DNA of 64,000 nt, from positions 1 to 64,000 of the forward strand of contig JABDMH010000090.1 of the NCBI GenBank assembly GCA_013001595.1, given 5' to 3'. Numbering within the stretch: position 1 is the stretch's first letter; every line of letters starts with the position of its first letter. The notes under the pieces are model-generated. The model was not told the DNA's origin. It saw only the letters and a program-made list of their open reading frames with translations, and did no database searches. The position numbers were made by a program, and so were the translations under genes. This stretch comes from Saprospiraceae bacterium (GTDB lineage Bacteria > Bacteroidota > Bacteroidia > Chitinophagales > Saprospiraceae). Of this stretch, positions 6,675-47,094 are shown one piece after another.

Positions 6675-6879
6675 TAGTACGCTGTCCACTGGAAGATTGT
6701 CGTTAATTTATGGTCCCTTTTTGCGAAAGCCTTTGTTGTATCCCGATAGCTATCGGGACAACAGGGCTACGGCCATGATTCCGTTTTAACGTCCGTCCCA
6801 ATGGCTTAGCCGAGCGGGCCTTGTCTTTCACAAAAATGACCTCAAAATTATTCAACATATTCCGCTGGACAGAGCACTA
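6675..6879. repeat. MITE-like dispersed element, copy 1
   Basis: About 205 bp with imperfect inverted ends: TAGTACGCTGTCCA at the left, and the complement of TGGACAGAGCACTA at the right, matching at 12 of 14 positions. Inside, 6741-6758 is the perfect palindrome TCCCGATAGCTATCGGGA, extended by TGTTG/CAACA into a longer hairpin. It shares a collinear set of landmarks with 13264-13465: inverted ends, TTTTTGCGAA, the CGATAGCTATCG core, an ATGGCT-AGCCG-GGGCCTTG block, AAAATT and GACAGAG-ACTA. It starts at the stop codon of the GH20-like gene and holds no credible ORF. Confidence 0.65.
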
Positions 6880-13263: not shown

Positions 13264-13465
13264 TAGTACTCAGTCAAGCAAAATATTGTCAAGAATTTAA
13301 GCTCTTTTTGCGAATTTCTTCGATGCATGCCGATAGCTATCGGCATGCCAGAGCTATGGCTCTTTCAGTGTTTTGCGCCCCTCCGAATGGCTAGCCGGGT
13401 GGGCCTTGAACTTCATCAAGAGTCTGATTAAAATTCACTAACATTATTAACTTGACAGAGTACTA
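13264..13465. repeat. MITE-like dispersed element, copy 2
   Basis: About 202 bp with terminal inverted repeats TAGTACTCAGTCAAG (13264-13278) and, on the other strand, TAGTACTCTGTCAAG (from 13465 inward), one mismatch in 15. Inside, 13325-13348 is a perfect 24-base palindrome with the same CGATAGCTATCG centre as copy 1 but different outer arms. A second small hairpin GAGC-TATG-GCTC follows, then a block resembling copy 1. It lies in the divergent intergenic region between two sulfatase genes and must affect, or at least sit among, their promoters. Confidence 0.7.
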
Positions 13466-21160: not shown

Positions 21161-21475
21161 ATGGATAGACCAGGTTTTGTGCATTCGGTATACTTCTGGC
21201 TCAAAGAGGAAGTGAGTGAGGATCAGCGAACAGCTTTCTCCCAGGGGCTGCAAGCATTAAACAATTGTCCTACCGTGCGTCATTCCTTCATTGGCCCATC
21301 AGCAGGTACACCCAGGGAAGTAGTTGACAATAGTTATGACTTTGCGCTATTGGTTTTCTTCGACAATAAGGTGGACCACGATGCCTATCAAGAAGATGAA
21401 ATCCATCACGAGTTTATTGATAAATACAAGGACATGTGGGCCCGAGTACAGATTTATGACCACCTTCCGGCCTAG
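21161..21475 (+). CDS. Dabb family stress-responsive alpha/beta-barrel protein
   Basis: The 104-residue protein starts MDRPGFVHSVYFWLKEEVSED, with the H-x-V-x-F-W-L-K opening typical of Dabb domains. It continues with ALNNCPTVRHSFIGPSAG and YDFALLVFFDNKVDHDAYQ, and ends in the helix and strand HHEFIDKYKDMWARVQIYD. These small proteins form dimeric ferredoxin-like barrels; most have no known reaction. I chose the ATG at 21161 because the upstream extension to 21101 is not conserved-looking. It is probably monocistronic: a foldback element lies 100 bases downstream. Confidence 0.85.
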   Translation: MDRPGFVHSVYFWLKEEVSEDQRTAFSQGLQALNNCPTVRHSFIGPSAGTPREVVDNSYDFALLVFFDNKVDHDAYQEDEIHHEFIDKYKDMWARVQIYDHLPA

Positions 21476-21816
21476 GAGACCGTTGAAATACCAACTCAGC
21501 TTCGTTCGCTGCCTCTTTTGCCGGCATACATCACCACAAGTACTCGATATAGCAGGTGCTGTGCCTGTGTTTTTTGACTCGTCTGCGACCAAAAGAAGCC
21601 AGTGTTCAGTTTCACAAGTTATAGTGAATAATTTTGAGTCCTATTTTGGTCATGATCAAGGCGACATGCGCAGTCATAGCCTTAGTTATGGCGAGCAATG
21701 GCAACGATGAGCATGGCCAGAAGAAGCCAAAATTATCGCTAATCACTTATGAAACTGGGCACTAACGAGTCAAATTAAGCCAGTAATTCAACGATCTCCT
21801 AAGACTGAGTGCCTAA
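21476..21816. other. Convergent intergenic region, mostly a foldback element
   Basis: Between the convergent Dabb and RNA methyltransferase genes. The first 100 bases hold nothing I can name; 21573-21774 is the long inverted repeat listed separately. An ORF that runs through (21324-21710) overlaps the Dabb gene out of frame and is not credible. Confidence 0.5.
21573..21774. repeat. Long imperfect palindrome / foldback MITE-like element
   Basis: About 200 bp whose two halves are imperfect reverse complements. The ends are TTTGACTCGT (21573) and ACGAGTCAAA (to 21774). The left arm GTGTTCAGTTTCACAAGT, from 21603, matches the complement of the right arm at about 21729-21763 (GTGCCCAGTTTCATAAGT), and both continue into AATTTTG. 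The match goes on through TGG-CATG-TCA to a central near-palindrome CATAGCCTTAGTTATG at 21675-21690. The left arm carries about 20 extra bases near 21583-21602. There is no coding potential. Confidence 0.65.
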
Positions 21817-22932
21817 TCAATAGAGGTCAAATCCCACGAATCTACAGTCGAGCGGTCCATTGAAAACAGGAATGCGACGGATCGGCCTAAGTCCCAGCTG
21901 TTTAATGGCTTTAAGATGGGAAGATATGATCCAAGCTTTCCAGCCATTACAATGTTGCTTGAGGTGGTCTCCAATCTGCTTATAAAAAAGTATGGCATCA
22001 TCTAAGCCGATGCGCTCATCGTAGGGAGGATTGAAAATAATCATCCCAGGTGGACCAGTTGGTTTCCACTTAAAGAAATCTCCCCTTCGCCATTTGATCG
22101 AATCATAGCCTGCCCGCATCGCATTGGTTTGGGCCGCATCCAACACCCGCTGATCTTTGTCTATACCCAACATCGCTGTTTCAACTGAACACTCTTTCGC
22201 CCGTGCAGCTTCTTTCACCACCCGCCACATCTGCTCGTCATAATCGGTCAACTTCATGAAGGAGAAATCACTACGAAAAGATTGGGCAGCCTTTTTGGAG
22301 GCCATCATAGCAGCCTCCATCAGAAAGGTTCCAGAACCACACATGGGATCCACCAGTGGTACCCCTTTCTTCCAACCCGATAGCTTTAAGAGTCCTGCAG
22401 CTAACACTTCGTTAATGGGTGCAGTTCCTCGTTTGTAGCGATATCCCCTTTTGAATAGGGTTGCACCTGAAGTGTCTAGAGAAATGGTACACCAATCGTC
22501 ACGGATGAAAATATTAATCTTGATGTCGGGATCTTTACTGATTGATGGTCTCTTTCCGTATCGATCGCGAAATTGATCGACAATCGCATCTTTGCTTTTC
22601 AGTGCCAAAAAATGGGTGTTGCGAAAGCGATCCGAATAGCAGACCATGTCAATCAGAAAAGTTTTATCTAAGGTGAAAATGCGATCCCAGTATACACTAC
22701 GAACCAGATCGTACAACTTAGATTCTGTGGGTGCGTGTCCTGATTTTATCGGTCTTAGTACACTCAGAGCTGTGCGTGTCTCCAAGTTCAGTCGATATCC
22801 CAAGGCCAGATCTCCCTGACACGAAACAGCCCTGTTTTCAACTTTCACTTGCTTGCCCCCCAGCGCTTGCACTTCGTGTGCCAAGAGACCTTCTAGACCG
22901 AATAGTGTCTTTACTACATACTGAATTGCCAT
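21817..22932 (-). CDS. THUMP-domain class I SAM-dependent RNA methyltransferase (RlmL/YpsC type)
   Basis: The 371-residue protein has an N-terminal THUMP-type RNA-binding part (about 1-160), starting YVVKTLFGLEGLLAHEVQALGG. The UPF0020 methyltransferase domain follows, with VDPMCGSGTFLMEAAM as the SAM-binding loop and IIFNPPYDERIG as the catalytic NPPY motif. The family makes N2-methylguanosine in large-subunit rRNA. Its length corresponds to the N-terminal methyltransferase half of Escherichia coli RlmL or to Bacillus YpsC. It stands alone on the minus strand. Confidence 0.9.
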   Translation of the reverse strand: MAIQYVVKTLFGLEGLLAHEVQALGGKQVKVENRAVSCQGDLALGYRLNLETRTALSVLRPIKSGHAPTESKLYDLVRSVYWDRIFTLDKTFLIDMVCYSDRFRNTHFLALKSKDAIVDQFRDRYGKRPSISKDPDIKINIFIRDDWCTISLDTSGATLFKRGYRYKRGTAPINEVLAAGLLKLSGWKKGVPLVDPMCGSGTFLMEAAMMASKKAAQSFRSDFSFMKLTDYDEQMWRVVKEAARAKECSVETAMLGIDKDQRVLDAAQTNAMRAGYDSIKWRRGDFFKWKPTGPPGMIIFNPPYDERIGLDDAILFYKQIGDHLKQHCNGWKAWIISSHLKAIKQLGLRPIRRIPVFNGPLDCRFVGFDLY

Positions 22933-36698: not shown

Positions 36699-36780
36699 TT
36701 TAGAACTAATGAATACACTGGGGAAAGGGTCATTTTTGATTTGGTCACCTTTTCGGAGTGGATTCTCTAATAATATATCT

Positions 36781-37492: not shown

Positions 37493-37547
37493 TCAAATTC
37501 TGGTAGACAAGCGAGCCAACCGAGCCAGTAATTCACCACCAGTCTCC

Positions 37548-38117
37548 TCATAGGCCTTCCAAACCTTCAGGCGTATTTACATTTAGTAAGCTAAGCCCAT
37601 CATCAACGAAAACCGGAACAACGTCAAGTTTTGATAAACATCTCCATAGCGCATAAATGCCGGCATCTATTTGATCCTGCAGCGTATTGTGACATGACGG
37701 TTCATAAATTGCACAAAGCGGATGCCAGCGATCATCTTCTTTCGTAAACGGTACTGTGGCATCTTTTAACGCATTCCTATTCCTGCTTATCATGGACAAC
37801 AATGATTTGTCTACATAGGGCATGTCTACAGCCAGCAAGAAAATCGGGCAGCCAGGTCGCCGGTGCAAGGCGGAATCAAGTGCGGCGATGGGACCAATAT
37901 TTGGGTGTCTGTCAATGAGCAACGGATAATTGTTAAAATCACCGGGATGGTCTTTACCACAGGAAATAAGTACTTCACCGCAAATAGAGCTGAGCAAATC
38001 ATGAGCGTGGTCAATCCATTTTGTACCATGACGCTGTAGCATGGCTTTGTTGGTGCCCATTCTACGGCTTAAGCCACCGGCAGCAACGATACCCACCCCA
38101 TCAAAGGTGGCATTCAT
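37548..38117 (-). CDS. mobA: Molybdenum cofactor guanylyltransferase MobA
   Basis: The 189-residue protein begins with GIVAAGGLSRRMGTNKAML, the nucleotidyltransferase signature (residues 9-27). ISCGKDHPGD and IFLLAVDMPYVDKSLL carry the metal-binding Asp. The enzyme links GMP to molybdenum-molybdopterin, making the MGD form used by DMSO-reductase-family enzymes. Its start overlaps the stop of moaC by four bases (ATGA), so translation is probably coupled. Its presence implies that at least one MGD enzyme exists elsewhere in the genome. Confidence 0.9.
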   Translation of the reverse strand: MNATFDGVGIVAAGGLSRRMGTNKAMLQRHGTKWIDHAHDLLSSICGEVLISCGKDHPGDFNNYPLLIDRHPNIGPIAALDSALHRRPGCPIFLLAVDMPYVDKSLLSMISRNRNALKDATVPFTKEDDRWHPLCAIYEPSCHNTLQDQIDAGIYALWRCLSKLDVVPVFVDDGLSLLNVNTPEGLEGL

Positions 38118-46926: not shown

Positions 46927-47094
46927 TGAAATTTACTCCGAAGAGGTCACCAAATCAAAAATGGTTCTTTTGGCAATCTTTCATTTTTCGCAGTTAGTGC
47001 AGTGTCTGTTGCCTTAAGGCGATATATTCGGTGATTTTATCGAAATAGGTGGAGAATCCTCACTATGCTCCATACCTTTATCTAAAATTAGACA

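Follow-up and report, generated by a model that had tools for sequence, protein, structure and literature searches.

A putative mobile hairpin nested in a second one between convergent genes of a Saprospiraceae bacterium, with a structured core also found in distant bacteria

In the usual view, a MITE is what remains of an insertion sequence once everything but the ends has been lost. The closest described systems are cited here from extracts of their sources. Type II MITEs such as MITECca01 of Cardinium (derived from IS982) are short and geneless, with ends like those of the parental insertion sequence (PMC9769881, PMC10969869). RUP of pneumococcus is non-autonomous, its ends match those of IS630-Spn1 and its target contains TA; for the imperfect palindrome named ERIC, IRU or RU-1, the effect on mRNA depends on orientation (PMC2229807). 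REP and REPIN sequences, with their tyrosine transposases, are abundant mobile palindromes in bacterial chromosomes (PMC2817692, PMC3116915), the REP repeats being 20-40 bp long (PMC3733652). As far as the extract of a 2007 review goes, most bacterial repeats of this kind had no candidate mover (PMC2229807).

The window analysed here is a stretch of 64,000 nucleotides from a Saprospiraceae bacterium (GCA_013001595.1, contig JABDMH010000090.1), in which two hairpins, A and C, lie one within the other. As for RUP and IS630-Spn1, we are dealing with non-autonomous repeats that have TA in the target and, in one end family, ends matching an insertion sequence; unlike RUP as described in the extract, the best-supported mover is of the IS5 type with 4-bp duplications (in that end family), and the ends vary while the core is common. 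With ~155-163 bp, long terminal repeats and CTAG or TA targets, the hairpins also differ from REP and REPIN. Type II MITEs, as the extracts describe them, have only ends in common with their parent, whereas here unrelated ends surround the same structured core, and this inversion, a common centre with differing ends, sets the hairpins apart from MITEs as described in the parts of the sources at hand (PMC2229807, PMC10969869, PMC9769881). The Cardinium MITE was considered as a relative and dropped, being IS982-derived and, so far as the extract tells, unrelated (PMC9769881). In the open-licence literature, we found no description of this hairpin superfamily, nor of five core or end strings taken from it.

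The original prediction had singled out 21573-21774 as a long imperfect palindrome between convergent genes that would fold into one hairpin, and this was borne out. Indeed, the named ends and centre are present, the segment is flanked by a Dabb-domain gene (PF07876; 21101-21475, + strand) upstream and by an RlmL-like THUMP methyltransferase gene (21817-22932, - strand) downstream, and the predicted folding energy of 21560-21790 is -83.4 kcal/mol, whereas 200 dinucleotide shuffles average -54.1 ± 4.5 (z -6.5) and none was as good. What did not hold is that these ends delimit a single unit. When 21560-21790 was used as a query against the genome, its first ~40 bases matched at several places, and at two or three of them (contigs 156, 113 and 21) the last ~30 bases follow directly, the middle being absent. 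The copies read define family A, a repeat of ~160 bp with ends GAGACTGTTGAA...TTCAACAGTCTC, for which a genome search with one A copy gave 21 matches (18 sites by our own count, some of them partial). The uninterrupted A copies L002, L003, L006 and L011 carry CTAG at the place where C sits, i.e., the empty site. As the window copy has an insert of 159 bp relative to them, one element nested in another is indicated and no single unit. Read from the letters, the palindrome is thus almost certainly a mobile hairpin, C, nested in a second mobile hairpin, A, of the same superfamily.

Element C (21603-21761, + strand, 159 bp) is an inverted repeat extra to the uninterrupted A copies, with terminal inverted repeats TGTTCAGTTTCACAAG / TGCCCAGTTTCATAAG and the end sequence TGTTCAGTTTCA. 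It is preceded by CCAG (21599-21602), where the A consensus is CTAG, and followed by CTAA (21762-21765); each of these 4-mers being one change away from CTAG, any target duplication would be approximate. Element A (21476-21798, - strand), split by C, has terminal inverted repeats GAGACCGTTGAA / GAGATCGTTGAA and measures 127 + 33 = 160 bp once C and one 4-mer are subtracted. On its left side, 21469-21602 shares 91% identity with the contig 156 copy; the right piece is 21762-21801. A is itself flanked by CTAG (21472-21475), whose TAG (21473-21475) serves the Dabb gene as stop codon, and by CTAA (21799-21802). Both ends of the palindrome as first delimited therefore belong to the interrupted repeat A, while the inserted unit is 21603-21761: the left one, TTTGACTCGT (21573-21582), is not C's end and is present in uninterrupted A copies, and the right one, ACGAGTCAAA (21765-21774), has its first base in the right 4-mer and aligns with CGAGCCAAA of other A copies. 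The two elements are 159 and 160 bp long (within the 50-500 bp range of MITEs), lack a transposase gene, end in inverted repeats and are multi-copy, C being inserted relative to an empty A site; by size, ends, copy number and empty site, they are classified on sequence as MITEs.

Another A copy is also split (L060/L161 on contig 44; L060 1288-1500), by a different palindrome of ~210 bp. The latter was considered as a carrier of the core described below and dropped, as the covariance model R1 gives no recognition. A fragment at 37510-37548 (+ strand) of the window is 85% like the right terminus of family-A elements (E 5e-4), and 36724-36764 and 46930-46970, 10 kb apart, form an inverted repeat pair of 41 nt (83% complementary) that looks like another repeat family.

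Parts of C match other repeats of the genome, above all those of family B, whose ends read TACTCTGTCCAG and for which a genome search gave 44 matches at E<=0.01. The alignment of C, A, B and repeats of relatives gave one common core. On 15 rows, RNAalifold predicted 27 pairs, 20 of which change on both sides in one or more rows, and R1 was built from this alignment, whose rows come from the own genome and relatives (Bacteroidota) only. In the window, R1 scores the C core (21642-21726, + strand) at 86.2 bits (E 1.9e-19), and a second model, R2, scores it at 75.3 bits (21634-21730), C being a training sequence of both. The A core (21512-21596) lies on the opposite strand and reaches 63.6 bits with R1 (E 1.3e-13; other A copies were in the training set, this copy outside it) and 31.8 bits with R2 (E 2.8e-6), which was trained without any A copy. 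R1 also matches 6714-6838 (28.9 bits) and, weakly, 13301-13423 (17.9 bits, E 0.079). The palindrome had been called unrelated to the other elements of the window, which these matches contradict. Moreover, rather than a single copy with no stable fold, the genome holds at least 66 R1 matches at E<=0.1 and at least 60 at E<=1e-3, counts that are lower bounds with 150 of 1494 first-look candidates scored. The expectation of further copies thus held for the core; C's particular ends, among the elements read, are seen only here. The surroundings of R1 matches outside A and B, when read, reveal further end families.

Within the window, 6675-6877 (- strand) is a family-B hairpin (75% to the B query, E 1.5e-39), whose core holds a small nested palindrome around CCCGATAGCTATCGGG; the weak core match at 13301-13423 (- strand) has a 57-nt repeat in common with 6717-6773. 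Small palindromes around CCCGATAGCTATCGGG and CCCGCCCGGCTAGCCATTCGGACGGG break cores at recurring places (L078, L079, L081, L085, L095, L141, L156 and L157) and are, as their letters read, further nesting.

Regarding the mover, the end pattern TARGGCRAYGCTGAAYAAGTC was run in four genomes. Among the matches listed, many end pairs are 167 bp apart, as hairpins would give, and one pair in one of the four genomes (L377, Roseateles) is 1188 bp apart. L377 encloses an ORF of 320 aa with DDE_Tnp_1 and DUF772 domains, a combination that we take to be typical of IS5 and that places this ORF with IS5-type transposases, and it has no core; one of its ends reads GGGCAACGCTGATTAAGTCCCC, compared with AGGCAACGCTGAATAAGTCCCC in hairpin L219 of the same genome. 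Three of 15 listed plasmid relatives, all three with an IS5 family annotation, have similar ends and lie between 4-bp duplications (CTAA, TTAA and TTAA), and the core is absent from the four IS5 elements read. Among hairpins of this Comamonadaceae/Roseateles end family, 9 of 17 have equal 4-bp flanks (control 0.09), seven of them CTAG, CTAA or TTAG and the others CAAG and CGAA. An IS5-type element with the same terminal repeats in a hairpin-carrying genome, together with these equal flanks, argues for MITE-type elements that are probably moved in trans, and an IS5-like mover is very likely for this end family on sequence evidence. Equal flanks are found in 2 of 8 family A copies (control 0.04). 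In the window, A is flanked by CTAG/CTAA and C by CCAG/CTAA, where other A copies have CTAG. Given the style of the ends and the CTAG sites, an IS5-like mover is somewhat favoured for A and can be put forward tentatively for C.

Equal 4-bp flanks are not in excess in B (7/27, control 0.29), F (1/5, 0.25), the Roseithermus type (6/9, 0.60) and the Endozoicomonas type (0/17, 0.20), which show TA at most as a target mark; the flank test of family E came from a loose 6-mismatch search in which many of the 33 rows were no elements, and it was left out of inference. As a rival reading, the hairpins could be TA-target MITEs moved by an IS630/Tc1-type transposase, the target habits by which we assign IS5 and IS630 families being those we presume for them. 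TA stands at both ends in 12 of 24 distinct family-B pairs, and also in the Endozoicomonas type, and the own genome has one IS630-type DDE_3 transposase ORF (L101 2-1030, contig 58), which is cut by the contig start. However, the visible end of this IS630-type element is, by eye, unlike those of A, B and C, its other end being missing, and one end family has 4-bp duplications and an IS5-type partner. An IS630/Tc1 mover is on the whole unlikely, with some probability left for it in the families showing TA only, such as B and the Endozoicomonas types.

The search for an autonomous partner extended to other sequences. No transposase with A, B or C ends was found in the own genome, searched for DDE_3, and the first 1.4 kb of 40 of its 161 contigs gave scattered, chance-like matches to such ends and no protein match to the two transposases. 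Among the loci, strict searches for terminal repeat pairs returned four pairs, each consisting of neighbouring hairpins or of a hairpin with a remnant or lone end, with no transposase between; a relaxed search returned four loci, with a transposase in L377 alone.

The core itself is widespread. In a phylum sample, 11 of 395 genomes, the own genome included, match at E<=1e-4 under strict filters; the distribution is patchy, and most genomes with any match have several copies. At least 120 stretches on contigs of named genomes contain the exact core pattern AAGGC-N13-RTAGCC-NN-AGYTAYGGCRAG-N7-AACG, for a chance expectation of ~5e-4 (own arithmetic from 25 fixed base-equivalents, both strands of 257 Gb and equal bases). 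Among the matches listed are Bacteroidota, Gammaproteobacteria (Endozoicomonas, Salinisphaeraceae), Burkholderiales, one Clostridia and one Gemmatimonadetes assembly; these taxa come from record titles, misbinning is possible for lone metagenome contigs, and some genera are placed in the class or phylum to which we take them to belong. At E<=0.001, R1 finds 7 copies in Roseithermus sacchariphilus, 29 in Endozoicomonas ascidiicola, 18 in Roseateles oligotrophus, 34 in Simplicispira hankyongi and 73 in Comamonas composti, all five being outside the host's family, and R2 gives 84.4 bits on a copy from a plasmid of Martelella (Alphaproteobacteria). Two blastn queries matched 6 and 7 of 72,556 plasmid records and one matched none of 50,697 phage records, while no viral contig has the exact core pattern. 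Scarcity on phages and plasmids is only suggested, because the queries were few.

The same core is found with many different ends. When 105 elements were clustered by single linkage at 60% end identity, they fell into 26 end families. Among 477 pairs with cores identical at 46 or more of 49 positions (about half of these positions being set by the search pattern), there are 135 in which the similarity at both ends does not exceed that of 95% of shuffled ends. Elements with identical cores and unrelated ends include L286/L302 and L192/L199. This leaves either very strong selection on the core or an exchange of ends. Of 92 elements from other genomes, 76 match at 11 or more of the 16 end bases next to TA. 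On contig 10 of G011, the near-identical hairpins L173 and L164, whose ends are again different (TATACTTCACGCGG...), lie less than 2 kb apart. In Simplicispira, a 122-bp copy (L379; contig 18, 69184-69305) has the same ends and lacks the apical core hairpin; as its sequence reads, it is a natural core deletion.

To follow the stems, 110 pattern matches were reduced to 32 at <75% identity and gave a gapless alignment, A3, of 31 rows (30 plus C). Paired cells amount to 84.5% (64.3% shuffled), cells changed on both sides to 205 (76.7 shuffled), and the covariation score to 0.521 against 0.169 ± 0.014 for shuffled and at most 0.181 for slid versions. The score benefits from a structure read off these very sequences, and the apical stem was set by the search pattern, which left the outer and middle stems free. 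Stems vary while the non-complementary loops AAGGC, AACG and CGAG stay constant, loop letters being partly fixed by the search pattern. Stem mispairs comprise 81 G.T and 20 A.C, with G.T exceeding A.C in 24 of 31 rows and the reverse in one. Composition alone predicts an excess of G.T (95.7 G.T and 56.5 A.C in shuffled columns), but A.C is depleted far more than G.T relative to these columns. The prevalence of G.T over A.C in stems points to one folded strand, with the polarity AAGGC to AACG, and for the C hairpin the + strand gives the better fold (z -4.3, compared with -2.7 for the - strand, over slightly different extents). Judging from these patterns, the core is probably kept as a folded single strand, most simply RNA. 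That it acts as RNA is a reading towards which we lean, and our best guess for its role is a sense-strand 3'-UTR RNA.

Palindromes can have one arm corrected from the other. The hairpins might hence be ordinary MITEs derived from insertion sequences, whose cores look conserved only because they spread recently or because one arm corrected the other, a folded strand not being under selection. Copies inside a family are indeed close, and such correction is possible in palindromes. We regard this as quite improbable, since the core is common to several phyla, stems change while loops stay, the covarying stems lie outside what the pattern fixed, and the core is missing from all four IS5 elements read.

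A further rival is a bidirectional terminator, or a stand-alone non-coding RNA gene, fixed between convergent genes. The palindrome folds strongly, C does so better as + strand, and a simple consensus scan found one terminator-like stem-loop with a T tail (21552-21568, + strand; shuffle mean 0.3) inside A, facing Dabb gene transcripts. As regards an ending of transcription from both sides, the scan gave this one + strand site inside A and none on C, whose hairpin has no T tail. The suggestion of a non-coding RNA kept its conserved folded strand, probably RNA by covariation and by G.T over A.C, and lost its lone palindrome. Rfam gave no match in the window at the gathering threshold, and for 21450-21830 one match at chance level (E 0.86).

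Placement bears on the same question. For the own genome and named loci, with a crude ORF caller, 28 copies are convergent, 12 divergent, 49 tandem, 14 perhaps intragenic and 15 unusable, so that convergent sites outnumber divergent ones. Copies at divergent and tandem sites nevertheless make convergent genes dispensable for placement. In addition, the methyltransferase gene is present in four of the five other species of the genus and the Dabb gene adjoins it, convergently, in three of these four (including G004); between these kept neighbours, R1 finds no core in the congeners with both genes (including G004). Together with the nested insertion, its empty-site copies and the dozens of copies elsewhere, this renders a fixed terminator or RNA gene more improbable still than ordinary MITEs. 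In another species of the genus, a weak core match (L342 2662-2748; 21.6 bits, E 0.0022) lies upstream of the methyltransferase gene, on its far side. Among tandem copies, 32 are in sense and 17 in antisense (p 0.044, crude ORF calls), a weak bias towards sense placement at 3' ends. In the window, C follows the Dabb gene, and A the methyltransferase gene, each in the sense orientation. The elements may be transcribed and may affect the neighbouring genes.

Membership in the ERIC/IRU family of enterobacteria is very improbable: although the general build is the same (a short imperfect palindrome, ~127 bp in the extract of PMC2229807, with TA ends and mostly chromosomal copies, few being on plasmids; an ERIC consensus matches 56,783 places on chromosomes and 68 on plasmids), both R1 and R2 miss an E. 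coli ERIC copy even with filters off, the core motif is absent from that copy, and ERIC was dropped as the parent family.

Taken together, we consider it likely that the window holds two non-autonomous MITE-type hairpins of one superfamily, moved in trans, with a core kept as a folded strand. A transposase from an insertion sequence, supplied in trans, would cut at the family-specific terminal inverted repeats and the element would be pasted at CTAG/YTAR or TA sites; C (159 bp) would have been inserted in this way into A (160 bp) at a CTAG. The core would then be retained as a folded single strand that keeps to one polarity; the simplest form of this is an RNA within the 3' UTR of the gene reading into it. 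A more speculative view, possible but doubtful at present, is that of cross-phylum modular selfish hairpins, whose structured RNA or single-stranded DNA core is selected as a folded strand, swaps its terminal inverted repeats and rides different transposases.

The IS5-type element provides a named candidate mover for one end family, which was lacking for most such repeats according to the extract of the 2007 review (PMC2229807). Unrelated ends around a near-identical folded centre in distant bacteria are unlike the usual build of small jumping elements. Both the job of the core, as RNA or single-stranded DNA, and the way in which one core gains new ends can now be tested. If the modular view is true, the lasting unit of inheritance would be the core and the ends would be secondary, the reverse of ordinary MITEs.
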